Source: Ulva prolifera (lineage: Eukaryota > Chlorophyta > Ulvophyceae > Ulvales > Ulvaceae). From it: DNA of 64,000 bases. The notes beneath the pieces are model-generated. The model ran no database searches. It was not told where the DNA came from and was given only the letters and a program-made list of their open reading frames with translations. The stretch's first letter is position 1. The number at the start of each line of letters is the position of its first letter. The stretch spans positions 11,023,943 to 11,087,942 of the forward strand of contig CM041199.1 in assembly GCA_023078555.1 (NCBI GenBank). Direction: 5' to 3'. Both the position numbers and the translations under genes were made by a program. Positions 1 to 62,505 of the stretch are shown one piece after another.

Positions 1-1479
1 CCATCATTCATTGCGTATTTTCTGCAGACACCATGGAGTGGTGTGGTGCAAAAGTGCACACTTTCCACCAACCCATGTGAATGGACTTGGTTGTAGCCAC
101 GCAACCCCCCGCGCATCAAAAGGTACGTCGCCATGAACATTCCAAGATGTTGGGGGGTATGGGATGATTATCATTCATTGCATATTTGCTGCTGACTCCC
201 AGGAGTGGCGTGGGGCAAAAGTGCACACTTTTCACCAACCTTGTGAATGGACTTGGCTATAGACAAGCATACCCCCGCGCACCATAGGGAAGTTGCCAGA
301 AACATCCTTTGATTCTGAAAGATCTAGGACGTCAAGTATGCATTGCACAGTTGTTGCTAACTCCTAGGAGTGGCGTGGAACAAAAGTGCACACTTTTCAC
401 CAACCATGTGAATGGACTTGGTTGTAGCCACGCAACCCCCCGCGCAGCAAAAGGTACGTCGCCATCAACATTCCAAGATGTTGGAGGGTATGGGATGTCC
501 ATCATTCATTGCGTATTTTCTGCAGACACCATGGAGTGGTGTAATGCAAAAGTGCACACTTTCCACCAACCCATGTGAATGGACTTGGTTGTAGCCACGC
601 AACCCCCCGCGCATGAAAAGGTGCGTCGCCATGAACATTCCAAGATGTTGGGGGGTATGGGATGATTATCATTCATTGCATATTTGCTGCTGACTCCCAG
701 GAGTGGCGTGGGGCAAAAGTGCACACTTTTCACCAACCATGTGAATGGACTTGGCTATAGACAAGCATACCCCCGCGCACCATAGGGAAGTTGCCAGAAA
801 CATCCTTTGATTCTGAAAGATCTAGGACGTCAAGTATGCATTGCACAGTTGTTGCTAACTCCCAGGAGTGGCGTGGAACAAAAGTGCACACTTTCCACCA
901 ACCCATGTGAATGGACTTGGTTGTAGCCACGCAACCCCCCGCGCATCAAAAGGTACGTCGCCATGAACATTCCAAGATGTTGGGGGGTATGGGATGATTA
1001 TCATTCATTGCATATTTGCTGCTGACTCCTAGGAGTGGCGTGGGGCAAAAGTGCACACTTTTCACCAACCATGTGAATGGACTTGGTTGTAGCCACGCAA
1101 CCCCCCGCGCATCAAAAGGTACGTCGCCATGAACATTCCAAGATGTTGGAGGGTATGGGATGATTATCATTCATTGCATATTTGCTGCTGACTCCCAGGA
1201 GTGGCGTGGGGCAAAAGTGCACACTTTTCACCAACCTTGTGAATGGACTTGGCTATAGACAAGCATACCCCCGCGCACCATAGGGAAGTTGCCAGAAACA
1301 TCCTTTGATTCTGAAAGATCTAGGACGTCAAGTATGCATTGCACAGTTGTTGCTAACTCCCAAGAGTGGCGTGGAACAAAAGTGCACACTTTTCACTAAC
1401 CATGTGAATGGACTTGGTTGTAGCCACGCAACCCCCCGCGCAGCAAAAGGTACGTTGCCATCAACATTCCAAGATGTTG

Positions 1480-2355
1480 GGGGGTATGGGATGTCCATCA
1501 TTCATTGCGTATTTTCTGCAGACACCATGGAGTGGTGTGGTGCAAAAGTGTACACTTTCCACCAACCCATGTGAATGCACTTGGTTGTAGCCACGCAACC
1601 CCCCGCGCATCAAAAGGTACATCGCCATCAACATTTTAAGATGGTGGGGGGTATGGGATGTCCATCATTCATTGCGTATTTTCTGCAGACACCATGGAGT
1701 GGTGTGGTGCAAAAGTGCACACTTTCCACCAACCCATGTGAATGGACTTGGTTGTAGCCACGCAACCCCCCGCGCATCAAAAGGTACGTCGCCATGAACA
1801 TTCCAAGATGTTAGGGGGTATGGGATGATTATCATTCATTGCATATTTGCTGCTGACTCCCAGGAGTGGCGTGGGGCAAAAGTGCACACTTTTCACCAAC
1901 CATGTGAATGGACTTGGTTGTAGCCACGCAACCCCCCGCGCATCAAAAGGTACGTCGCCATGAACATTCCAAGATGTTGGAGGGTATGGGATGATTATCA
2001 TTCATTGCATATTTGCTGCTGACTCCCAGGAGTGGCGTGGGGCAAAAGTGCACACTTTTCACCAACCTTGTGAATGGACTTGGCTATAGACAAGCATACC
2101 CCCGCGCACTATAGGGAAGTTGCCAGAAACATCCTTTGATTCTGAAAGATCTAGGACGTCAAGTATGCATTGCACAGTTGTTGCTAACTCCTAGGAGTGG
2201 CGTGGAACAAAAGTGCACACTTTTTACCAACCATGTGAATGGACTTGGTTGTAGCCACGCAACCTCCCGCGCAGCAAAAGGTACGTCGCCATCAACATTC
2301 CAAGATTTTGGGGGGTATGGGATGTCCATCATTCATTGCGTATTTTCTGCAGACA
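1480..2355 (+). repeat. Segmental duplicate, copy 1 (spacing 1,496 bp)
   Basis: About five monomers that match 2976-3851 almost base for base at a spacing of nine monomers. Shared rare marks include AAGTGTACAC with GAATGCACTTGG, AACATTTTAAGATGGTGG, and GCGCACTATAGGG in the C monomer near 2100 and 3600. I saw one difference inside the block (CAACCTCCCGCG near 2262 against CAACCCCCCGCG near 3758). Confidence 0.85.
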
Positions 2356-2975
2356 CCATGGCGTGGTGTGGTGCAAAAGTGCACATTTTCCACCAACCCA
2401 TGTGAATGGACTTGGTTGTACCCACGCACCCCCTGCGCATCAAAAGGTACGTCGCCATCAACATTCCAAGATGTTGGGGGTATGGGATGTCCATCATTCA
2501 TTGCGTATTTTCTGCAGACACCATGGAGTGGTGTGGTGCAAAAGTGCACACTTTCCACCAACCCATGTGAATGGATTTGGTTGTAGCCACGCAAACCCCC
2601 GCGCATCAAAAGGTACGTCCCCATGAACATCCAAAGATGTTGGGGGGTATGGGATGTCCATCATCCATTGCGTATTTTCTGCAGACACCATGGAGTGGTG
2701 TGGTGCAAAAGTGCACACTTTCCACCAACCCATGTGAATGGACTTGGTTGTAGCCACGCAACCCCCCGCGCAGCAAAAGGTACGTCGCCATCAACATTCC
2801 AAGATTTTGGGGGGTATGGGATGTCCATCATTCATTGCGTATTTTCTGCAGACACCATGGCGTGGTGTGGTGCAAAATTGCACATTTTCCACCAACCCAT
2901 GTGAATGGACTTGGTTGTACCCACGCACCCCCTGCGCATCAAAAGGTACGTCGCCATCAACATTTTAAGATGGTG

Positions 2976-3851
2976 GGGGGTATGGGATGTCCATCATTCA
3001 TTGCGTATTTTCTGCAGACACCATGGAGTGGTGTGGTGCAAAAGTGTACACTTTCCACCAACCCATGTGAATGCACTTGGTTGTAGCCACGCAACCCCCC
3101 GCGCATCAAAAGGTACATCGCCATCAACATTTTAAGATGGTGGGGGGTATGGGATGTCCATCATTCATTGCGTATTTTCTGCAGACACCATGGAGTGGTG
3201 TGGTGCAAAAGTGCACACTTTCCACCAACCCATGTGAATGGACTTGGTTGTAGCCACGCAACCCCCCGCGCATCAAAAGGTACGTCGCCATGAACATTCC
3301 AAGATGTTAGGGGGTATGGGATGATTATCATTCATTGCATATTTGCTGCTGACTCCCAGGAGTGGCGTGGGGCAAAAGTGCACACTTTTCACCAACCATG
3401 TGAATGGACTTGGTTGTAGCCACGCAACCCCCCGCGCATCAAAAGGTACGTCGCCATGAACATTCCAAGATGTTGGAGGGTATGGGATGATTATCATTCA
3501 TTGCATATTTGCTGCTGACTCCCAGGAGTGGCGTGGGGCAAAAGTGCACACTTTTCACCAACCTTGTGAATGGACTTGGCTATAGACAAGCATACCCCCG
3601 CGCACTATAGGGAAGTTGCCAGAAACATCCTTTGATTCTGAAAGATCTAGGACGTCAAGTATGCATTGCACAGTTGTTGCTAACTCCTAGGAGTGGCGTG
3701 GAACAAAAGTGCACACTTTTTACCAACCATGTGAATGGACTTGGTTGTAGCCACGCAACCCCCCGCGCAGCAAAAGGTACGTCGCCATCAACATTCCAAG
3801 ATTTTGGGGGGTATGGGATGTCCATCATTCATTGCGTATTTTCTGCAGACA
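2976..3851 (+). repeat. Segmental duplicate, copy 2 (spacing 1,496 bp)
   Basis: Partner of 1480-2355. The match is lost upstream, where this copy has AACATTTTAAGATGG and the other has AACATTCCAAGATG, and downstream where the B monomer switches from GCGTGG to GAGTGG. Confidence 0.85.
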
Positions 3852-6800
3852 CCATGGAGTGGTGTGGTGCAAAAGTGCACACTTTCCACCAACCCATGTG
3901 AATGGACTTGGTTGTAGCCACGCAACCCCCCGCGCAGCAAAAGGTACGTCGCCATCAACATTCCAAGATTTTGGGGGGTATGGGATGTCCATCATTCATT
4001 GCGTATTTTCTGCAGACACCATGGAGTGGTGTAATGCAAAAGTGCACACTTTCCACCAACCCATGTGAACGGACTTGGTTGCAGCCACGCAACCCCCCGC
4101 ACATCAAAGGTACGACTACATGAACATTCCAAGATGTTGGGGGGCATGGGATGTCCATCATTCATTGCGTATTTTCTGCAGACACCATGGAGTGGTGTGG
4201 TGCAAAAGTGCACACTTTCCACCAACCCATGTGAATGGACTTGGTTGTAGCCACGCAACCCCCCGCGCATCAAAAGGTACGTCGACATGAACATTCAAAG
4301 ATGTTGGGGGGTATGGGATGTCCATCATTCATTGCGTATTTTCTGCAGACACCATGGAGTGGTGTAATGCAAAAGTGCACACTTTCCACCAACCCATGTG
4401 AACGGACTTGGTTGCAGCCACGCAACCCCTCGCACATCAAATGTACGATGACATGAACATTCCAAGATGTTGGGGGGTATGGGATGTCCATCATTCATTG
4501 CGTATTTTCTGCAGACACCATGGAGTGGTGTAATGCAAAAGTGCACACTTTCCACCAACCCATGTGAATGGACTTGGTTGTAGCCACGCAACCCCCCGCG
4601 CATCAAAAGGTACGTCCCCATGAACATTCAAAGATGTTGGGGGGTATGGGATGTCCATCATCCATTGCGTATTTTCTGCAGACACCATGGAGTGGTGTGG
4701 TGCAAAAGTGTACACTTTCCACCAACCCATGTGAATGGACTTGGTTGTAGCCACGCAACCCCCCGCGCATCAAAAGGTACATCGCCATCAACATTCCAAG
4801 ATGTTGGGGGGTATGGGATGTCCATCATTCATTGCGTATTTTCTGCAGACACCATGGAGTGGTGTGGTGCAAAAGTGCACACTTTCCACCAACCCATGTG
4901 AATGGACTTGGTTGTAGCCACGCAAACCCCCGCGCATCAAAAGGTACGTCCCCATGAACATCCAAAGATGTTGGGGGGTATGGGATGTCCATCATCCATT
5001 GCGTATTTTCTGCAGACACCATGGAGTGGTGTGGTGCAAAAGTGCACACTTTCCACCAACCCATGTGAATGGACTTGGTTGTAGCCACGCAACCCCCCGC
5101 GCAGCAAAAGGTACGTCGCCATCAACATTCCAAGATTTTGGGGGGTATGGGATGTCCATCATTCATTGCGTATTTTCTGCAGACACCATGGCGTGGTGTG
5201 GTGCAAAAGTGCACACTTTCCACCAACCCATGTGAATGGACTTGGTTGTAGCCACGCAACCCCCCGCACATCAAAAGGTACGTCGCCATCAACATTCCAA
5301 GATTTTGGGGGGTATGGGATGTCCATCATTCATTGCGTATTTTCTGCAGACACCATGGAGTGGTGTGGTGCAAAAGTGTACACTTTCCACCAACCCATGT
5401 GAATGGACTTGGTTGTAGCCACGCAACCCCCCGCGCATCAAAAGGTACATCGCCATCAACATTCCAAGATGTTGGGGGGTATGGGATGTCCATCATTCAT
5501 TGCGTATTTTCTGCAGACACCATGGAGTGGTGTGGTGCAAAAGTGCACACTGTCCACCAACCCATGTGAATGGATTTGGTTGTAGCCACGCAACCCCCCG
5601 CGCATCAAAAGGTACGTCGCCATGAACATTCCAAGATGTTAGGGGGTATGGGATGATTATCATTCATTGCATATTTGCTGCTGACTCCCAGGAGTGGCGT
5701 GGGGCAAAAGTGCACACTTTTCACCAACCTTGTGAATGGACTTGGCTATAGACAAGCATACCCCCGCGCACCATAGGGAAGTTGCCAGAAACATCCTTTG
5801 ATTCTGAAAGATCTAGGACGTCAAGTATGCATTGCACAGTTGTTGCTAACTCCTAGGAGTGGCGTGGAACAAAAGTGCACACTTTTCACCAACCATGTGA
5901 ATGGACTTGGTTGTAGCCACGCAACCCCCCGCGCAGCAAAAGGTACGTCGCCATCAACATTCCAAGATGTTGGAGGGTATGGGATGTCCATCATTCATTG
6001 CGTATTTTCTGCATACACCATGGAGTGGTGTAATGCAAAAGTGCACACTTTCCACCAACCCATGTGAATGGACTTGGTTGTAGCCACGCAACCCCCCGCG
6101 CATGAAAAGGTGCGTCGCCATGAACATTCCAAGATGTTGGGGGGTATGGGATGATTATCATTCATTGCATATTTGCTGCTGACTCCCAGGAGTGGCGTGG
6201 GGCAAAAGTGCACACTTTTCACCAACCATGTGAATGGACTTTGCTATAGACAAGCATACCCCCGCGCACCATAGGGAAGTTGCCAGAAACATCCTTTGAT
6301 TCTGAAAGATCTAGGACGTCAAGTATGCATTGCAAAGTTTTTGCTAACTCCCAGGAGTGGCGTGGAACAAAAGTGCACACTTTTCACCAACCATGTGAAT
6401 GGACTTGGTTGTAGCCACGCAACCCCCCGCGCAGCAAAAGGTACGTTGCCATCAACATTCCAAGATGTTGGGGGGTATGGGATGTCCATCATTCATTGCG
6501 TATTTTCTGCAGACACCATGGAGTGGTGTGGTGCAAAAGTGTACACTTTCCACCAACCCATGTGAATGGACTTGGTTGTAGCCACGCAACCCCCCGCGCA
6601 TCAAAAGGTACATCGCCATCAACATTCCAAGATGTTGGGGGGTATGGGATGTCCATCATTCATTGCGTATTTTCTGCAGACACCATGGAGTGGTGTGGTG
6701 CAAAAGTGCACACTTTCCACCAACCCATGTGAATGGACTTGGTTGTAGCCACGCAACCCCCCGCGCATCAAAAGGTACGTCGCCATGAACATTCCAAGAT

Positions 6801-6974
6801 GTTAGGGGGTATGGGATGATTATCATTCATTGCATATTTGCTGCTGACTCCCAGGAGTGGCGTGGGGCAAAAGTGCACACTTTTCACCAACCATGTGAAT
6901 GGACTTGGTTGTAGCCACGCAACCCCCCCGCGCATCAAAAGGTACGTCGCCATGAACATTCCAAGATGTTGGAG

Positions 6975-8305
6975 GGTATGGGATGATTATCATTCATTGC
7001 ATATTTGCTGCTGACTCCCAGGAGTGGCGTGGGGCAAAAGTGCACACTTTTCACCAACCTTGTGAATGGACTTGGCTATAGACAAGCATACCCCCGCGCA
7101 CCATAGGGAAGTTGCCAGAAACATCCTTTGATTCTGAAAGATCTAGGACGTCAAGTATGCATTGCACAGTTGTTGCTAACTCCCAGGAGTGGCGTGGAAC
7201 AAAAGTGCACACTTTTCACCAACCATGTGAATGGACTTGGTTGTAGCCACGCAACCCCCCGCGCAGCAAAAGGTACGTTGCCATCAACATTCAGAGATGT
7301 TGGGGGGTATGAGATGTCCATCATTCATTGCGTATTTTCTGCAGACACCATGGAGTGGTGTAATGCAAAAGTGCACACTTTCCACCAACCCATGTGAACG
7401 GACTTGGTTGCAGCCACGCAACCCCCCGCACATCAAAGGTACGACTACATGAACATTCCAAGATGTTGGGGGGTATGGGATGTCCATCATTCATTGCGTA
7501 TTTTCTGCAGACACCATGGAGTGGTGTAATGCAAAAGTGCACACTTTCCACCAACCCATGTGAACGGACTTGGTTGCAGCCACGCAACCCCCCGCACATC
7601 AAAGGTACGACTACATGAACATTCCAAGATGTTGGGGGGCATGGGATGTCCATCATTCATTGCGTATTTTCTGCAGACACCATGGAGTGGTGTGGTGCAA
7701 AAGTGCACACTTTCCACCAACCCATGTGAATGGACTTGGTTGTAGCCACGCAACCCCCCGCGCATGAAAAGGTACGTCGACATGAACATTCAAAGATGTT
7801 GGGGGGTATGGGATGTCCATCATTCATTGCGTATTTTCTGCAGACACCATGGAGTGGTGTAATGCAAAAGTGCACACTTTCCACCAACCCATGTGAATGG
7901 ACTTGGTTGTAGCCACGCAACCCCCCGCGCATCAAAAGGTACGTCCCCATGAACATTCAAAGATGTTGGGGGGTATGGGATGTCCATCATTCATTGCGTA
8001 TTTTCTGCAGACACCATGGAGTGGTGTGGTGCAAAAGTGTACACTTTCCACCAACCCATGTGAATGGACTTGGTTGTAGCCACGCAACCCCCTGCGCATC
8101 AAAAGGTACATCGCCATCAACATTCCAAGATGTTGGGGGGTATGGGATGTCCATCATTCATTGCGTATTTTCTGCAGACACCATGGAGTGGTGTGGTGCA
8201 AAAGTGCACACTTTCCACCAACCCATGTGAATGGACTTGGTTGTAGCCACGCAACCCCCCGCGCATCAAAAGGTACGTCGCCATGAACATTCCAAGATGT
8301 TGGGG
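6975..8305 (+). repeat. Higher-order repeat, 1,331 bp, copy 1
   Basis: Eight-monomer unit containing A, C, B, D, D, B, B, B-type monomers. It is followed directly by a second copy at 8306-9636 with only about two differences that I could see (TCCCAGG against TCCTAGG near 7184 and 8515; CATTCATTG against CATCCATTG near 7990 and 9321). Such near identity points to a recent unequal exchange or amplification. Confidence 0.9.
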
Positions 8306-9696
8306 GGTATGGGATGATTATCATTCATTGCATATTTGCTGCTGACTCCCAGGAGTGGCGTGGGGCAAAAGTGCACACTTTTCACCAACCTTGTGAATGG
8401 ACTTGGCTATAGACAAGCATACCCCCGCGCACCATAGGGAAGTTGCCAGAAACATCCTTTGATTCTGAAAGATCTAGGACGTCAAGTATGCATTGCACAG
8501 TTGTTGCTAACTCCTAGGAGTGGCGTGGAACAAAAGTGCACACTTTTCACCAACCATGTGAATGGACTTGGTTGTAGCCACGCAACCCCCCGCGCAGCAA
8601 AAGGTACGTTGCCATCAACATTCAGAGATGTTGGGGGGTATGAGATGTCCATCATTCATTGCGTATTTTCTGCAGACACCATGGAGTGGTGTAATGCAAA
8701 AGTGCACACTTTCCACCAACCCATGTGAACGGACTTGGTTGCAGCCACGCAACCCCCCGCACATCAAAGGTACGACTACATGAACATTCCAAGATGTTGG
8801 GGGGTATGGGATGTCCATCATTCATTGCGTATTTTCTGCAGACACCATGGAGTGGTGTAATGCAAAAGTGCACACTTTCCACCAACCCATGTGAACGGAC
8901 TTGGTTGCAGCCACGCAACCCCCCGCACATCAAAGGTACGACTACATGAACATTCCAAGATGTTGGGGGGCATGGGATGTCCATCATTCATTGCGTATTT
9001 TCTGCAGACACCATGGAGTGGTGTGGTGCAAAAGTGCACACTTTCCACCAACCCATGTGAATGGACTTGGTTGTAGCCACGCAACCCCCCGCGCATGAAA
9101 AGGTACGTCGACATGAACATTCAAAGATGTTGGGGGGTATGGGATGTCCATCATTCATTGCGTATTTTCTGCAGACACCATGGAGTGGTGTAATGCAAAA
9201 GTGCACACTTTCCACCAACCCATGTGAATGGACTTGGTTGTAGCCACGCAACCCCCCGCGCATCAAAAGGTACGTCCCCATGAACATTCAAAGATGTTGG
9301 GGGGTATGGGATGTCCATCATCCATTGCGTATTTTCTGCAGACACCATGGAGTGGTGTGGTGCAAAAGTGTACACTTTCCACCAACCCATGTGAATGGAC
9401 TTGGTTGTAGCCACGCAACCCCCTGCGCATCAAAAGGTACATCGCCATCAACATTCCAAGATGTTGGGGGGTATGGGATGTCCATCATTCATTGCGTATT
9501 TTCTGCAGACACCATGGAGTGGTGTGGTGCAAAAGTGCACACTTTCCACCAACCCATGTGAATGGACTTGGTTGTAGCCACGCAACCCCCCGCGCATCAA
9601 AAGGTACGTCGCCATGAACATTCCAAGATGTTGGGGGGTATGGGATGATTATCATTCATTGCATATTTGCTGCTGACTCCCAGGAGTGGCGTGGAA
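8306..9696 (+). repeat. Higher-order repeat, 1,331 bp, copy 2 plus about 60 bp
   Basis: Second copy of the 1,331 bp unit. The match continues about 60 bp into a third copy and stops where the A monomer near 9690 takes a C-type tail (GTGGAACAAAAG instead of GTGGGGCAAAAG). The transposon lies 212 bp further on. Confidence 0.9.
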
Positions 9697-9905
9697 CAAA
9701 AGTGCACACTTTTCACCAACCATGTGAATGGACTTGGTTGTAGCCACGCAACCCCCCGCGCAGCAAAAGGTACGTCGCCATCAACATTCCAAGATTTTGG
9801 GGGGTATGGGATGTCCATCATTCATTGCGTATTTTCTGCAGACACCATGGCGTGGTGTGGTGCAAAAGTGCACACTTTCCACCAACCCATGTGAATGGAC
9901 TTGGT

Positions 9906-9907
9906 TG
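9906..9907 (+). mobile_element. Target site duplication, left TG
   Basis: The monomer reads ..GGACTTGGT-TG-TAGCCACGC.. everywhere else. Here TG precedes the CACAGG end, and a second TG (13729-13730) follows the CCTGTG end. Two bases alone are weak evidence. The exact restoration of the monomer on removing the element plus one TG is strong support. Confidence 0.75.
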
Positions 9908-9937
9908 CACAGGTCCTACGCCACACTTGCACACCCA
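9908..9937 (+). mobile_element. Left terminal inverted repeat
   Basis: Starts CACAGGTCCTACGCC and ends TGCACACCCA. Against the reverse complement of 13699-13728 it agrees at bases 1-6, 8, 11-13, 15, 19 and 21-30. Similarity continues more loosely inward: both sides carry GGGTGCGC at about base 47 or 45 from the tip, with a 2 bp offset. Confidence 0.8.
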
Positions 9938-10170
9938 GGTGCGCCACTGGACTGGGTGCGCGATCTTGGGGTGAGCCGAATCGTAAGTCCTTGGGAAATG
10001 CGAGATTTGATGATCTCAAGGTATCATTGTGCTCTAGAGTCAGTTTAACATACGTTGGTGGGCTTGGAACCCCTGTGATAGCTAGGGGATGCATCTAATG
10101 GCCACCCATCACCTTTTCTGCCCACCTGGTGGGTGCTCCATGTCCAAAGGTGCGCCGACAGTGGGTGAGC
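9938..10170 (+). repeat. Left subterminal repeat cluster
   Basis: Contains GGTGCGCC (9938-9945 and again 10149-10156), GGGTGCGC (9954-9961), GGGGTGAGCC (9968-9977) and GTGGGTGAGC (10161-10170), all in one orientation. A short palindrome CCCACC-T-GGTGGG lies at 10121-10133. In CACTA elements such motifs close to the ends are transposase binding sites; that role is inferred here. Confidence 0.6.
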
Positions 10171-12507
10171 TGGTCTAGCGAAGTCACTGCAACCGGGTCT
10201 GCGGCAGGCCTAATCGTGTTGGAATGCAAAATCACAGTACCAGAGTTGCTGTACAGCTGTTGGAATGTGGAGCTGGGTTCCTGGAGCGTGGGTCACTACG
10301 AACAGCTCACCCAAAGGGTGTGCCATGGTTCTGAGTGAGGTGTGCTTTGTGGGAACCTGGCCGATGAAAGGCCCATCGCCATGGGGATTCGCAGAGCATG
10401 GCATGTTACACCATCTCATCAAGTGGAGGAAGACTGTTCGGCTCAGTCTGCTGGTTGGATACTGTGTACTATGTGAAGGTTGTGGATGAGCCTGTTCAAG
10501 TCAACACTGAGGCGGGCTCAGCACCCGCTGCACATGCCAATGTGAATTTAGTTGGCTTAAATCAGCTGGGATGTGTCCGTGAATGGTGAATGGAGATTGC
10601 ACGTGGTGTCCATGCCGTGTGACTGAAGTACGAGCCAACTGCGCCATACACCAGATCAGATATCCGTGCATTCACATAAATCTGTCACCATTGAAGAGCA
10701 TGCTGTAATCCGTGGTCGATTGTCCGCAAGGTCTGTCCTAGCAAAGGCCACACATGTATAGAGCCATCGACAGCCCGTTCAATGGTGTTGCAGGCATGCA
10801 AAATTCCGTCATGTCATATCCAACGGTCTACACAAAGTGCAGCATCCTTGAATGCGGCGCATTGCAATGGCGCGCGATGGTGTTCATGCTTTCAGACGTC
10901 GCCGAGGTACGAACAACTGTAGATCAGTGCATCGTTGCCACTCCGCCACACATGGTTGAACATCAGAAGACCCGTGCAGCTGACAGCTATCCCACGTACG
11001 CCAGTGCAAGACATGTTATACTGGTGCAATTACATGTCGAAGCGATTGCATGGACAGATAACGGCCAGGACACAGCATTCGCGTGTAGTACTTGCGGTAG
11101 CGTCGCCTGCAGGCAGCCGGCGCTACGAAACATGATTACTTTCTGAAGTGGATATTTACCTTTGGCGCGTTAGGGAGGCTTGTGATGCTGCGTCGATCAG
11201 CTCTTGCATGTCGCCGTGTCAGTTGCAGCTCCCCGTTGCAGTATAACTAGGTGATCTGCATTCACCGATGGCGTAGATCGTTTCGCAAGTATGTATTACT
11301 TTATCCTCCATGGTCTAATATCTTTTATGTCTGTACACTGTGCTGTCACGCAAATTTCACGAGCACTCGTTGTTGATCAAGCCCCTCGAGCAGGCCCCGA
11401 GCCCGGCGAAGACAAGGGCGAGCTTGTGTTCGCGTGAGTGACGTTGATTAGACTCTTTCTGTTCCATGGATTGTCTTGAAATGGTGCATACCTCGAAGCG
11501 TTTGCCTGATGTCAAGAGCTGTGCGTGCGTGCAGGTGCACTTGCTACACCTCTCCAACTTGAGACACAGATCCGATGTCGACAGTCAATGTGTATTTTTC
11601 AACTTCAATCAGAGACCTTTGTTGAGCAGAGGTTCGTTCTGAGACTGTCAAGCTAGCAATTGACTTTTCGTTGCAGCTTTAGCACAAACGGTCGGTCACA
11701 TGATTATGATACATTTGCTGTAAATGGTCACAACGCCTGGCTGTTGTAGCTGATGTCCTGACACGGATGGCTGCCAGCTCTGGACGTCTCAGGAATACTT
11801 GCTCATGTAGGTCTACAACCAGCACACAGATTGCAACATACAGAGATTGAGGCATCGACAATCAGTACAGCCACAATGAGGACATGCAGCATATATCTGC
11901 TGACCGAACTGGCCTGATGGTCCAAATGGTTCGCTGCTGCCCCGATAGCTTGCTGATGTGTTCAGTCGATCGATAGACTCATTTCATACTAAGATGCTTT
12001 GAATATGAAAAAACTGATCGCATGCAGGATGGCAATGGCCAAAGCTTTGGATACCTGACAAGACCGATGCAGTAAGCCTAGCATGGCAGGTGTGCATACA
12101 CTGTCTTGCATCTCTGAATGCCACCTTGCACCTTCATTATTTTCTTTCCGTGAATTTTTACCCCGTAGATGCCTTGGTCTGTGCAACAAGGCGTCATATC
12201 ATCTCTGGTATGCAGGAGCAGACTTGGCGAAGGAGCAGACCTCCACTCGATCAGGCCACGTTCAATTGTGCAGTGAGCAAGTATATACCAGCTAGTGTCG
12301 ATTTGATGGTGAATGTTGAGTGTATTTTATGTATGGTAGTAAGCAATTTGAGCAAGACTGAGCAGTGCATGGTGGGAGCGACTTGAGGTGGTTCAAGGAC
12401 CACCGTAGATTGGCGCCAGCGATGATAGGAATGTACCAAACACGTATTACAATGCTGTACCTGATTATGAAGCATCTATTTGATGATTTGCGTGTTCAGG
12501 CAATTCA
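10171..12507. other. Transposon interior, no recognisable gene
   Basis: Unique sequence of mixed composition. Open frames are short (up to 130 codons), scattered on both strands, and show no transposase motif, zinc finger or other domain I can name. A spliced gene with small exons cannot be excluded by eye. No tandem repeat, tRNA-like cloverleaf or satellite fragment was seen. Confidence 0.6.
10754..11146 (+). CDS. Doubtful 130-codon open frame in the transposon
   Basis: The longest open frame in the unique block. It begins MYRAIDSPFNGV and ends ALRNMITF. It has eight cysteines with no regular spacing, no hydrophobic stretch long enough for a membrane segment and no signal peptide. I do not recognise the product. 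It has no neighbour on the same strand that would suggest an operon or a spliced gene. The length is compatible with chance in DNA that is not AT-rich, so I think it more likely not a gene. If real, it would be an accessory or fragmentary transposon product. Confidence 0.1.
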   Translation: MYRAIDSPFNGVAGMQNSVMSYPTVYTKCSILECGALQWRAMVFMLSDVAEVRTTVDQCIVATPPHMVEHQKTRAADSYPTYASARHVILVQLHVEAIAWTDNGQDTAFACSTCGSVACRQPALRNMITF

Positions 12508-12624
12508 GCGCACCCAGCATGCTCACGCATACATGTGTCGCGCACTCGATGGCGCACTCTAGTGGGTGAGCCTTGGTTTCACAGGCGCGCAAACGCGAGT
12601 GGGTGCGCAGACGCAGAGTGCGCC
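12508..12624. repeat. Internal cluster of end-type repeats with inverted repeat
   Basis: 12508-12526 (GCGCACCCAGCATGCTCAC) matches the right subterminal region at 13677-13695 at 18 of 19 bases in direct orientation. Immediately after come left-type motifs: GTGGGTGAGC at 12562-12571 (identical to 10161-10170), CACAGG at 12580-12585 and GGGTGCGC at 12601-12608. A perfect 10 bp inverted repeat GGCGCACTCT/AGAGTGCGCC sits at 12551-12560 and 12615-12624. A right-type end facing a left-type end suggests a nested or fused second element. No second matching terminus or target duplication was found. Confidence 0.6.
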
Positions 12625-13676
12625 AACTAGAAGACGTGCGATATGGCACACAATCAAGGCTAATTGCCCGCTATCATATTGCATAAGTGATCCTGGGCAA
12701 AACTGTGTCCAGCGACATCGAATTGATGAATATCGATCGGTGTGCAGTGGCCCGCGAATCGTAACGCACGGAGGCTTCCACATTGTCATCGTGCAACTGG
12801 TACTATGCACTTATCATATGAAAGAGTACTTGCATTCAGCGAGATTGTGTTGAGCGGGGCGTTCGCGAGGGCTGCAACCTCACATTCATGCTTGCAGTGC
12901 GCTTTGCTTTACTGGCAACGCCACGTAACCAGAAGCTTTTGGCACACCATTTCGCGGCTGATATAATCAGATCTCACCATCGTGAAAACACTGTGGACAT
13001 GATCGTGGCTTTGCCACGGATGACAGCAGACAGCTTGGGCATTTTCGCAACAGCACGAACACACACGACACCTGGCATGTCCTGATTTGGCTGGAGTCGG
13101 CACTCGTATACATACCAAAGAGCTTTCTGTTATTCCTGACGTAGACTTCTCGCGCGCACGGAACCTATAGTGGATCTCTCCAACATACAGAGCATACGAT
13201 GGCCGCGCATGTATCTGTCTCACTGCAAGCGAACCAGTCACAGCATGGCATGCAGCAGCAGACTAACATAACTAGAGTTCACCAATTGGCTTAAGCCATA
13301 CACTTTAGCCTTTTCCGGCCTTGGATCTGGATTGTACTATCAATTCGTGCTGCGTTGCCGCGGAGCCATGGCATCACGGAGCGGACACGAGAGAGCCGGA
13401 TCATGGCAGACCGTGCCGCAAACCAGTCATGTGTACAAACTAAGTAACTAAGAACATTATTGTACGGTCTGTGCACAATGCTATGTCTCCTGCGTGCCAT
13501 GTCACCGTTCGCTGCGTCGCGTCCGAGCCACTATCATGAAGCCACGGGAGGCCAAGTGCTCCAGCGATCACCTTCGGAATGCTTCCTTGATCCATTAAAT
13601 GTACATATCTACTACTGTGGGCCTTCACGAGCCAAATTGAATCTGTTTCAGCACATTTAATATTTCAGTGCAGCTT
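12625..13676. other. Transposon interior, right part, no recognisable gene
   Basis: Unique sequence between the internal end-type cluster and the right end. The longest open frame is 110 codons on the minus strand (12909-13241), cysteine-rich near its middle but without a recognisable motif. Nothing else was seen. Confidence 0.55.
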
Positions 13677-13698
13677 GCGCACCCAACATGCTCACCCA
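13677..13698 (-). repeat. Right subterminal repeats
   Basis: GCGCACCCA (13677-13685) and GCTCACCCA (13690-13698) are the reverse complements of TGGGTGCGC and TGGGTGAGC found inside the left end. The two sides therefore carry the same motifs in mirror orientation, as expected for CACTA-type ends. Confidence 0.65.
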
Positions 13699-13728
13699 TG
13701 GGTGTGCATGCTGGTCGTCTGCCCTGTG
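13699..13728 (-). mobile_element. Right terminal inverted repeat
   Basis: Read on the minus strand it starts CACAGGGCAGACGACC and continues to TGCACACCCA, pairing with 9908-9937. It is followed by the second TG and then TAGCCACGCAACC of the satellite. Confidence 0.8.
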
Positions 13729-13730
13729 TG
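13729..13730 (+). mobile_element. Target site duplication, right TG
   Basis: Second TG, directly after CCTGTG and before TAGCCACGCAACC; pairs with 9906-9907. Confidence 0.75.
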
Positions 13731-57309: not shown

Positions 57310-59110
57310 TTGGCTATAGACAAGCATACCCCCGCGCACCATAGGGAAGTTGCCAAAAACATCCTTTGATTCTGAAAGATCTAGGACGTCAAGTATGCAT
57401 TGCACAGTTGTTGCTAACTCCCAGGAGTGGCGTGGAACAAAAGTGCACACTTTTCACCAACCATGTGAATGGACTTGGTTGTAGCCACGCAACCCCCCGC
57501 GCATCAAAAGGTACGTCGCCATCAACATTCCAAGATGTTGGGGGGTATGGGATGTCCATCATTCATTGCGTATTTGCTGCTGACTCCCAGGAGTGGCGTG
57601 GGGCAAAAGTGCACACTTTTCACCAACCAGTGGCGTGGGGCAAAAAGTGCACACTTTTCACCAACCATGTGAATGGACTTGGCTATAGACAAGCATACCC
57701 CCGTGCACAATAGGGAAGTTGCCAAAAACATCCTTTGATTCTGAAAGATCTAGGACGTCAAGTATGCATTGCACAGTTGTTGCTAACTCCCAGGAGTGGC
57801 GTGGTGCAAAAGTGCACACTTTCCACCAACCATGTGAATGGACTTGGTTGTAGCCACGCAACCCCCCGCGCATCAAAAGGTACATCGCCATCAACATTCC
57901 AAGATGTTGGGGGGTATGGGATGATTATCGTTCATTGCATATTTGCTGCTGACTCCCAGGAGTGGCGTGGGGCAAAAGTGCACACTTTTCACCAACCATG
58001 TGAATGGACTTGGTTGTAGCCACGCAACCCCCCGCGCATGAAAAGGTACGTCGCCATGAACATTCCAAGATGTTGGGGGGTATGGGATGATTATCATTCA
58101 TTGCATATTTGCTGGTGACTCCCAGGAGTGGCGTGGGGCAAAAGTGCACACTTTTCACCAACCATGTGAATGGACTTGGCTATAGACAAGCATACCCCCG
58201 CGCACAATAGGGAAGTTGCCAAAAACATCCTTTGATTCTGAAAGATCTAGGACGTCAAGTATGCATTGCACAGTTGTTGCTAACTCCCAGGAGTGGCGTG
58301 GAACAAAAGTGCACACTTTTCACCAACCATGTGAATGGACTTGGTTGTAGCCACGCAACCCCCCGCGCATCAAAAGGTACATCGCCATCAACATTCAAAG
58401 ATGTCGGGGGGTATGGGATGTCCATCATCCATTGCGTATTTTCTGCAGACACCATGGAGTGGTGTGGTGCAAAAATATACACTTTCCACCAACCCATGTG
58501 AATGGACTTGGTTGTAGCCACGCAACCCCCCGCGCATCAAAAGGTACGTCCCCATGAACATTCAAAGATGTTGGGGGGTATTGGATGTCCATCATCCATT
58601 GCGTATTTTCTGCAGACACCATGGAGTGGTGTGGTGCAAAAGTGCACACTTTCCACCAACCCATGTGAATGGACTTGGTTGTAGCCACGCAACCCCCCGC
58701 GCATCAAAAGGTACGTCGCCATGAACATTCCAAGATGTTGGGGGGTATGGGATGATTATCGTTCATTGCATATTTGCTGCTGACTCCCAGGAGTGGCGTG
58801 GGGCAAAAGTGCACACTTTTCACCAACCATGTGAATGGACTTGGTTGTAGCCACGCAACCCCCCGCGCATGAAAAGGTACGTCGCCATGAACATTCCAAG
58901 ATGTTGGGGGGTATGGGATGATTATCGTTCATTGCATATTTGCTGCTGATTCCCAGGAGTGGCGTGGGGCAAAAGTGCACACTTTTCACCAACCATGTGA
59001 ATGGACTTGGTTGTAGCCACGCAACCCCCCGCGCATGAAAAGGTACGTCGCCATGAACATTCCAAGATGTTGGGGGGTATGGGATGATTATCATTCATTG
59101 CATATTTGCT
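57310..59110 (+). repeat. Higher-order repeat, copy 1 (spacing 3,395 bp)
   Basis: About 1.8 kb matching 60705-62505. The marks are TTGCCAAAAACATCC in C monomers, the 38 bp partial duplication, GATGTCGGGGGG and AAAATATACAC. A third, rearranged version lies between them at about 59.17-60.46 kb (offsets 1,863 and 1,533 bp). The spacing is not a whole number of monomers because of the 38 bp insertions. Confidence 0.85.
57592..57666 (+). repeat. Within-monomer tandem duplication, 37 + 38 bp (1 of 3)
   Basis: The segment AGTGGCGTGGGGC..CACCAACC occurs twice in a row, the second copy having five A instead of four. It makes a monomer of about 204 bp. The monomer is also chimeric, starting as type B (GATGTCCATC, GCGTATT) and ending as type A (TGCTGCTGACTCCC). 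Confidence 0.92.
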
Positions 59111-59454
59111 GGTGACTCCCAGGAGTGGCGTGGGGCAAAAGTGCACACTTTTCACCAACCATGTGAATGGACTTGGCTATAGACAAGCATACCCCCGCGC
59201 ACCATAGGGAAGTTGCCAAAAACATCCTTTGATTCTGAAAGATCTAGGACGTCAAGTATGCATTGCACAGTTGTTGCTAACTCCCAGGAGTGGCGTGGAA
59301 CAAAAGTGCACACTTTTCACCAACCATGTGAATGGACTTGGTTGTAGCCACGCAACCCCCCGCGCATCAAAAGGTACGTCGCCATCAACATTCCAAGATG
59401 TTGGGGGGTATGGGATGTCCATCAATCATTGCGTATTTGCTGCTGACTCCCAGG

Positions 59455-59529
59455 AGTGGCGTGGGGCAAAAGTGCACACTTTTCACCAACCAGTGGCGTG
59501 GGGCAAAAAGTGCACACTTTTCACCAACC
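59455..59529 (+). repeat. Within-monomer tandem duplication, 37 + 38 bp (2 of 3)
   Basis: Same structure as at 57592 in the same chimeric B/A monomer; here the B part reads CATCAATCATTGCG. Confidence 0.92.
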
Positions 59530-60533
59530 ATGTGAATGGACTTGGCTATAGACAAGCATACCCCCGCGCACAATAGGGAAGTTGCCAAAAACATCCTTTG
59601 ATTCTGAAAGATCTAGGACGTCAAGTATGCATTGCACAGTTGTTGCTAACTCCCAGGAGTGGCGTGGAACAAAAGTGCACACTTTTCACCAACCATGTGA
59701 ATGGACTTGGTTGTAGCCACGCAACCCCCCGCGCATCAAAAGGTACATCGCCATCAACATTCCAAGATGTTGGGGGGTATGGGATGTCCATCATTCATTG
59801 CGTATTTTCTGCAGACACCATGGAGTGGTGTGGTGCAAAAGTGCACACTTTCCACCAACCCATGTGAATGGACTTGGTTGTAGCCACGCAGCCCCCCGCG
59901 CATCAAAAGGTACGTCCCCATGAACATTCAAAGATGTCGGGGGGTATGGGATGTCCATCATCCATTGCGTATTTTCTGCAGACACCATGGAGTGGTGTGG
60001 TGCAAAAATATACACTTTCCACCAACCCATGTGAATGGACTTGGTTGTAGCCACGCAACCCCCCGCGCATCAAAAGGTACGTCCCCATGAACATTCAAAG
60101 ATGTTGGGGGGTATTGGATGTCCATCATCCATTGCGTATTTTCTGCAGACACCATGGAGTGGTGTGGTGCAAAAGTGCACACTTTCCACCAACCCATGTG
60201 AATGGACTTGGTTGTAGCCACGCAACCCCCCGCGCATCAAAAGGTACGTCGCCATGAACATTCCAAGATGTTGGGGGGTATGGGATGATTATCGTTCATT
60301 GCATATTTGCTGCTGACTCCCAGGAGTGGCGTGGGGCAAAAGTGCACACTTTTCACCAACCATGTGAATGGACTTGGTTGTAGCCACGCAACCCCCCGCG
60401 CATGAAAAGGTACGTCGCCATGAACATTCCAAGATGTTGGGGGGTATGGGATGATTATCATTCATTGCATATTTGCTGGTGACTCCCAGGAGTGGCGTGG
60501 GGCAAAAGTGCACACTTTTCACCAACCATGTGA

Positions 60534-60863
60534 ATGGACTTGGCTATAGACAAGCATACCCCCGCGCACCATAGGGAAGTTGCCAGAAACATCCTTTGAT
60601 TCTGAAAGATCTAGGACGTCAAGTATGCATTGCACAGTTGTTGCTAACTCCCAGGAGTGGCGTGGAACAAAAGTGCACACTTTTCACCAACCATGTGAAT
60701 GGACTTGGCTATAGACAAGCATACCCCCGCGCACCATAGGGAAGTTGCCAAAAACATCCTTTGATTCTGAAAGATCTAGGACGTCAAGTATGCATTGCAC
60801 AGTTGTTGCTAACTCCCAGGAGTGGCGTGGAACAAAAGTGCACACTTTTCACCAACCATGTGA
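60534..60863 (+). repeat. Two adjacent C monomers
   Basis: The only place where I see two complete 165 bp C monomers side by side (60534-60698 and 60699-60863). Elsewhere a C is followed by an A, B or D unit. The first has TTGCCAGAAAC and the second TTGCCAAAAAC, so they belong to different local lineages joined by an exchange. Confidence 0.85.
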
Positions 60864-62505
60864 ATGGACTTGGTTGTAGCCACGCAACCCCCCGCGCATC
60901 AAAAGGTACGTCGCCATCAACATTCCAAGATGTTGGGGGGTATGGGATGTCCATCATTCATTGCGTATTTGCTGCTGACTCCCAGGAGTGGCGTGGGGCA
61001 AAAGTGCACACTTTTCACCAACCAGTGGCGTGGGGCAAAAAGTGCACACTTTTCACCAACCATGTGAATGGACTTGGCTATAGACAAGCATACCCCCGCG
61101 CACAATAGGGAAGTTGCCAAAAACATCCTTTGATTCTGAAAGATCTAGGACGTCAAGTATGCATTGCACAGTTGTTGCTAACTCCCAGGAGTGGCGTGGT
61201 GCAAAAGTGCACACTTTCCACCAACCATGTGAATGGACTTGGTTGTAGCCACGCAACCCCCCGCGCATCAAAAGGTACATCGCCATCAACATTCCAAGAT
61301 GTTGGGGGGTATGGGATGATTATCGTTCATTGCATATTTGCTGCTGACTCCCAGGAGTGGCGTGGGGCAAAAGTGCACACTTTTCACCAACCATGTGAAT
61401 GGACTTGGTTGTAGCCACGCAACCCCCCGCGCATGAAAAGGTACGTCGCCATGAACATTCCAAGATGTTGGGGGGTATGGGATGATTATCATTCATTGCA
61501 TATTTGCTGGTGACTCCCAGGAGTGGCGTGGGGCAAAAGTGCACACTTTTCACCAACCATGTGAATGGACTTGGCTATAGACAAGCATACCCCCGCGCAC
61601 AATAGGGAAGTTGCCAAAAACATCCTTTGATTCTGAAAGATCTAGGACGTCAAGTATGCATTGCACAGTTGTTGCTAACTCCCAGGAGTGGCGTGGAACA
61701 AAAGTGCACACTTTTCACCAACCATGTGAATGGACTTGGTTGTAGCCACGCAACCCCCCGCGCATCAAAAGGTACATCGCCATCAACATTCAAAGATGTC
61801 GGGGGGTATGGGATGTCCATCATCCATTGCGTATTTTCTGCAGACACCATGGAGTGGTGTGGTGCAAAAATATACACTTTCCACCAACCCATGTGAATGG
61901 ACTTGGTTGTAGCCACGCAACCCCCCGCGCATCAAAAGGTACGTCCCCATGAACATTCAAAGATGTTGGGGGGTATTGGATGTCCATCATCCATTGCGTA
62001 TTTTCTGCAGACACCATGGAGTGGTGTGGTGCAAAAGTGCACACTTTCCACCAACCCATGTGAATGGACTTGGTTGTAGCCACGCAACCCCCCGCGCATC
62101 AAAAGGTACGTCGCCATGAACATTCCAAGATGTTGGGGGGTATGGGATGATTATCGTTCATTGCATATTTGCTGCTGACTCCCAGGAGTGGCGTGGGGCA
62201 AAAGTGCACACTTTTCACCAACCATGTGAATGGACTTGGTTGTAGCCACGCAACCCCCCGCGCATGAAAAGGTACGTCGCCATGAACATTCCAAGATGTT
62301 GGGGGGTATGGGATGATTATCGTTCATTGCATATTTGCTGCTGATTCCCAGGAGTGGCGTGGGGCAAAAGTGCACACTTTTCACCAACCATGTGAATGGA
62401 CTTGGTTGTAGCCACGCAACCCCCCGCGCATGAAAAGGTACGTCGCCATGAACATTCCAAGATGTTGGGGGGTATGGGATGATTATCATTCATTGCATAT
62501 TTGCT
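60705..62505 (+). repeat. Higher-order repeat, copy 2 (spacing 3,395 bp)
   Basis: Partner of 57310-59110. The match ends in an A monomer where this copy has GCTGCTGACTCC and the other GCTGGTGACTCC. Confidence 0.85.
60987..61061 (+). repeat. Within-monomer tandem duplication, 37 + 38 bp (3 of 3)
   Basis: Third copy of the same event, one step further along the higher-order repeat. All three share the extra A, so they descend from one duplication. Confidence 0.92.

Follow-up and report, generated by a model that had tools for sequence, protein, structure and literature searches.

What is the DNA that interrupts a satellite array on contig CM041199.1 of the green alga Ulva prolifera (assembly GCA_023078555.1), and how did it come to lie there? 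The window, that is, the whole stretch of 64,000 nucleotides analysed here (positions 11,023,943 to 11,087,942 of the forward strand), consists of 167-bp satellite monomers, read on the forward strand, at 1-9907 and again at 13729-64000, the latter arm including longer variant units beyond about 57.4 kb. Between the two arms lies an insert of 3,821 bp (9908-13728, forward strand). Very probably this insert belongs to the CACTA/Mirage/Chapaev (CMC) type of cut-and-paste DNA transposons and is non-autonomous, a 10.8-kb relative being its likely source of mobility. Its insertion in the satellite was most likely amplified together with the array. An earlier reading of the window, made from its letters without database searches (the sequence-only reading), had described the surroundings as satellite, and both arms of the array agree with that description.

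The insert starts with CACAGG at 9908 and ends with CCTGTG at 13728. The sequence-only reading had drawn the same boundaries and staked its interpretation on finding a second copy that kept them; further copies were found, and their boundaries are identical. The left terminal inverted repeat (9908-9937, forward strand) and the right one (13699-13728, reverse strand) agree at 22 of 30 positions, reproducing the earlier count, with a probability by chance of about 4e-8 for a fixed pair of ends. The motif GGGTGNGC occurs 12 times in the insert, on both strands and in three clusters (element positions 22-416, 2601-2701 and 3770-3800), against a mean of 0.56 in 200 dinucleotide-matched random sequences and a maximum of 5 in another 200, so the subterminal repeats reported earlier are well above background. 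Six of these motifs lie in a left subterminal region (9908-10383, forward strand), which shares homology with the left ends of the long relatives. The other six, in two clusters, lie in the right 1.3-1.4 kb (12347-13728, forward strand), homologous to the right part of the relative on contig C4 as far as that part was read. The best conserved block common to the relatives is internal to this right portion (12538-12652, element 2631-2745, forward strand; 115 bp at 85%). Between the two ends is an interior of about 2 kb (10384-12346).

The insertion duplicated two bases of its target. The junction reads ggttg/tgtagcc, whereas the uninterrupted monomer reads ggttgtagcc, leaving one TG in surplus: the TG at 9906-9907 equals that at 13729-13730. 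Because the TG is duplicated, restoring the 167-bp monomer takes the removal of 3,823 bp, and the sequence-only reading was mistaken in holding that excision of 9908-13728 restores the monomer exactly, as the extra TG stays behind. Flanks were scored for 14 independent insertions with both ends and for one 10.8-kb relative (15 in total), leaving out a copy without its first three bases (C7:6414435). The two flanking bases agree in 13 of the 14 insertions of the window family and in the relative on C4 (14/15), while agreement over three or four bases was found in none of the 15. Together with the copies sharing the same ends and with 4,317 exact empty target sites in the genome, these duplications support, as far as sequence can show, the earlier proposal of a single transposition event at this locus.

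The genome is an 88.9-Mb assembly of 44 contigs, and the window lies in contig C4. Light-harvesting genes, with 38 matching stretches, mark the host as a photosynthetic eukaryote. The whole insert, used as a query, retrieved at least 44 matches (the best 40 of 43 candidates scored). Fourteen run from end to end, with one (C7:6414435) lacking the first 3 bases; the remaining matches are interrupted, truncated or adjoin runs of N. The mutual identity of the 14 end-to-end copies ranges from 94.7 to 100%. Nine of them are 99.1-100% identical to one another, and a looser group of five shows 94.7-97.8% identity internally and 95.0-96.0% to the nine. Copies that are 99-100% identical suggest recent movement. 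C7:6414435 and the partial copies C3:12375268 and C7:6496307 have nearly identical right flanks and look like a second insertion that was itself duplicated. As a separate observation, these three copies lie near contig ends (right flanks at C7:6418271, C3:12376599 and C7:6497636), suggesting exchange between chromosome ends. A biological origin was considered for the breakpoints at element positions 2489/2490 in three copies and set aside, given that two have runs of N beside them and the third falls between the end of a contig and a stretch of N.

Five right junctions with the satellite were found, all at one monomer position and all on C4 between 10.38 and 11.04 Mb. One of these copies (C4:10644395) is, together with its 1.5-kb flanks, 100% identical to the window copy; the two members of this pair (L039 and L040), separated by 389 kb, show no difference over 6.8 kb. 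Duplication during assembly could explain such a fully identical pair, and the runs of N beside three partial copies fit the idea that some of the apparent array copies are artefacts of this kind. We consider it unlikely, as two further copies (L041 and L042) differ from L039 in both sequence and flanks, and the family outside the array exists independently of any such duplication.

The element has no recognisable gene. The longest stop-free frame spans 134 codons in the window copy, and from 130 to 188 codons across the 14 copies. A Pfam scan of three open reading frames (ORFs) of the window returned no credible match, the best being DUF6163 (E 0.053), below the cut-off. The sequence-only reading had likewise seen no recognisable transposase and had called the element non-autonomous, which fits both results. 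Searched by itself, the interior at 10400-12300 (about 1.9 kb) gave 23 matches, all within copies of the window element.

A candidate source of the missing functions is provided by three 10.8-kb relatives (C1:1776636-1787453, C2:3181820-3192603 and C4:7943755-7954532), which have a 13-bp left end in common with the window element. The copy on C4 is flanked by an AT duplication. Similarity extends beyond the termini: the left 476 bp or so of the window element matches at 67-68% identity at C4:7943755, C2:3192603, C1:1776636 and C4:6893333, and the right 1.3 kb or so aligns with the C4 relative with scores of 101 and 63, against shuffle maxima of 5 and 12.5 (30 shuffles each). Since ends, duplication length and subterminal sequence are held in common with this putative partner, the window element would need to be moved in trans by it.

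The C4 relative contains a series of exon-like ORFs on one strand. An exon of 349 residues contains FIDG, ADTPA and CDKC, the ADTPA stretch presumably resembling tnp2, and a later exon contains HRCFAH and FGER. These motifs, picked by eye in one copy, give the order D, D, C(2)C, H(4)H, E across the two exons, which would be joined by splicing and whose motifs may be catalytic. The 349-residue core exon is 100% identical and free of stops in all three long relatives, and at least 125 stretches matching it occur in the genome (the best 116 of 224 candidates scored). Downstream of the transposase-like exons of the C4 relative lies a second gene with 58 matches in the genome. Forty-eight of these lie downstream of one of the 60 transposase places used, on the same strand and no more than 12 kb away, whereas random placement gave 0.3 on average and at most 3 (200 placements). 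With their transposase-like exons and the same left end, the 10.8-kb relatives are good candidates for the partner that the sequence-only reading had supposed to lie elsewhere in the genome.

Several observations weigh against this account and should be set beside it. The 13-base end pattern, by which the left ends of the three relatives were paired with right ends 10.8 kb away, occurs at 82 places, compared with 46 for a reversed control. With so high a background many single places may be fortuitous, and the pairing of ends rests on the adjoining DNA and on the protein matches. The comparison with the C4 relative excludes 7943791-7944199, at its left end, and 7954300-7954518, part of its right end. 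Ten ORFs of the relative, scanned at E up to 1, and three of them scanned again at E up to 10 gave no credible Pfam match, and the tnp2 domain (PF02992, Transposase_21) was among the domains without a match in these scans. A genome search with PF02992 also gave no match and is uninformative, as no control genome gave one either. The core exon matched no solved structure in a sequence search, and its AlphaFold2 fold from a single sequence (predicted local distance difference test score, pLDDT, 34) was unusable. Among the scored flanks, those at C2:3000944 (AA/TT) are the sole mismatch, and those at C1:6412826 agree over five bases as well (GGAGG). Finally, the right part of the element contains a frame of 163 codons that is open in 8 of the 14 copies and closed in the window copy.

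This last frame bears on whether the 3.8-kb element is a decayed autonomous transposon whose own transposase has eroded, rather than a derivative that took its ends from the 10.8-kb relative. An interior of about 2 kb matched only within the window family would be in keeping with such decay. So would the comparison of the interior with the genes of the relative, in which four of five pieces outscored all five shuffles on one strand or both, three by a small margin and one clearly (43 versus 29.5), at scores that were weak overall. However, the 163-codon frame shares sequence with the subterminal block and lacks a marked coding bias: changes summed over five comparisons number 27, 27 and 36 at codon positions 1 to 3, a slight excess at the third. 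Moreover, copies as similar as 99-100% suggest recent movement, yet no frame in any copy exceeds 188 codons or, in the window copy, 134, and the three scanned ORFs of the window lack a credible Pfam match. Decay from an autonomous element is quite improbable, and we retain the interpretation of a non-autonomous element probably dependent on the relative.

Elements with similar ends occur in other contexts in this genome. The copy at C2:10457592-10459951 (L056) is cut short by a different sequence, which starts with CACAGGGCCTAC and is probably another element. A right end at C9:889201 belongs to another element, inserted in the transposase gene of a partner-like copy (92.8% identity to the C4 relative over a 1.5-kb flank). 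These nested insertions at C9:889201 and C2:10457592 indicate that families with such ends are diverse in the genome. A possible further element of about 10.6 kb lies at C6:3401474-3412035; each of its ends carries CACAGGGCAGACG, and both genes of the partner have matches within it (62% and 47% identity). The same end motif recurs on one strand of C9:3586200-3697451 at spacings of about 7-25 kb, two of them of 14,155-14,156 bp, which would fit tandem repetition of a long unit that includes this transposon end. At one end-like match (L032), the translated right flank resembles, by eye, a reverse transcriptase of the long interspersed nuclear element (LINE) kind.

The affiliation of the element was assessed against the defining features of the known groups. 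Subterminal repeats are a feature of CACTA elements, and the 12 copies of GGGTGNGC, in both orientations, conform to the plant type, as do the CAC...GTG ends. Three other features of plant CACTA/EnSpm transposons are lacking: the termini read CACAGG rather than CACTA, a 3-bp duplication was found in none of the 15 scored insertions, and the partner has no PF02992 domain among its scanned ORFs. By comparison, the general CMC termini, 5'-CA(C)...(G)TG-3', are present in the window element and its copies as CACAGG...CCTGTG, and the 2 bp duplicated in 14 of 15 insertions fall within the CMC range of 2-5 bp. We place the family in the wider CMC group, and not demonstrably in plant-type EnSpm, because of the 2-bp duplication and the lack of a Pfam Transposase_21 match. 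The CACTA/EnSpm-like label of the sequence-only reading thus holds for the broad group, on the evidence of ends, duplications and relative, while a plant-type EnSpm identity is not demonstrable.

Published systems offer several comparisons. The CMC/CMCT group (EnSpm, Mirage, Chapaev, Plavaka, ESTA and Transib) is described as having CA..TG ends and duplications of 2-5 bp, as here, together with the motifs C(2)C and H(3-4)H, for which the relative has candidate counterparts picked by eye (PMC12730594). The order read there, acidic residues with these two motifs, is the one given for the transposases of EnSpm, Mirage, Chapaev, Transib and Plavaka (PMC12730594). The KDZ (Zisupton) and Plavaka families were set aside, the element having a 2-bp duplication and CAC ends and its relative no credible Pfam match among the scanned ORFs; according to the same source, Zisupton makes 8-bp duplications and Plavaka has TGT or CATCA ends (PMC12730594). 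The transposase exons and second gene of the relative recall the organisation described for autonomous CACTA elements, in which a DDE transposase gene with introns is accompanied by a second ORF (PMC4158355). Similar termini are reported for the CMC elements ENS1_Cis of Ciona and CMC-NA, both with 5'-CAC/GTG-3' ends and 2-bp duplications (PMC6004678). CMC-NA, however, comprises miniature inverted-repeat transposable elements (MITEs) of wasps and their viruses, and ENS1_Cis comes from a tunicate, while the window element is 3.8 kb long with a large unique interior. Algal transposons of the EnSpm class are described as generally longer than 10 kb (PMC12477816), a size like that of the 10.8-kb relatives. 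A literature search for CACAGG with transposon terms found nothing, and among the matches listed for CACTA/EnSpm, short duplications, and algae or Klebsormidium, the element is not described in the excerpts available, Repbase lying outside the scope of the search.

Returning to the satellite, the window holds 305 uninterrupted target sites at up to two mismatches, 242 of them exact. The 4,317 exact empty target strings in the genome occur on one strand only, and supply the empty sites that the sequence-only reading had proposed to look for in other copies of the array. Among the matches listed, they begin at C4:10,095,552, from which the array would extend over about 1 Mb towards the end of C4. 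Independently of the insertion, longer satellite units at 57426-61227 were seen to result from a 38-bp partial duplication at 57592, 59455 and 60987.

Apart from the identical pair, the flanks of the other three satellite copies are 92.5-97.4% identical to those of the window copy (2.6-7.5% difference). Because other places in the array reach similar values (up to 96.9% to the left flank of the window copy and 99.7% to the right), this identity is no proof of shared descent. The internal sequence is more telling. The four full-length satellite copies have three fixed substitutions in common relative to the remaining five members of the 99% group. At two of these positions all five copies of the looser group carry the other base, and at the third they are mixed. 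Given these three common substitutions and the single monomer position, we favour one insertion followed by duplication of array segments as the most likely origin of the five satellite copies. The alternative, that each copy arose by its own insertion into a favoured target site of the monomer, would agree with the unremarkable flanks of three copies but is highly improbable in view of the pair identical through its 1.5-kb flanks, the three substitutions common to the four full-length copies, and the varied duplications at scored insertions outside the array.

A pathway consistent with these observations can be proposed. A transposase and an accessory protein encoded by the 10.8-kb relative would bind the GGGTGNGC subterminal repeats and cut at CACAGG and CCTGTG, and insertion at staggered breaks would generate the 2-bp duplication. 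Once a single monomer had received the element, the array would have multiplied it to five or more copies by unequal exchange or by duplication of segments, as their position and shared substitutions suggest. A broader interpretation, which we put forward tentatively and regard as possible rather than probable, is that the 10.8-kb relatives and dozens of related two-gene loci form a distinct CMC lineage, with 2-bp duplications, CACAGG ends, a transposase invisible to Pfam and a conserved second protein. The window element would then be a recently active non-autonomous branch of that lineage whose interior came from outside, and its insertion in the satellite would serve as a natural marker of the growth of an array of about 1 Mb.

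These results overturn no existing view. They extend the set of DNA transposons of a photosynthetic eukaryote by a non-autonomous family that has clear boundaries, was recently active and has a likely partner with two genes. Furthermore, an insertion that recurs at a single monomer position, in five or more parts of the array, allows one to trace how that array grew and was homogenised.

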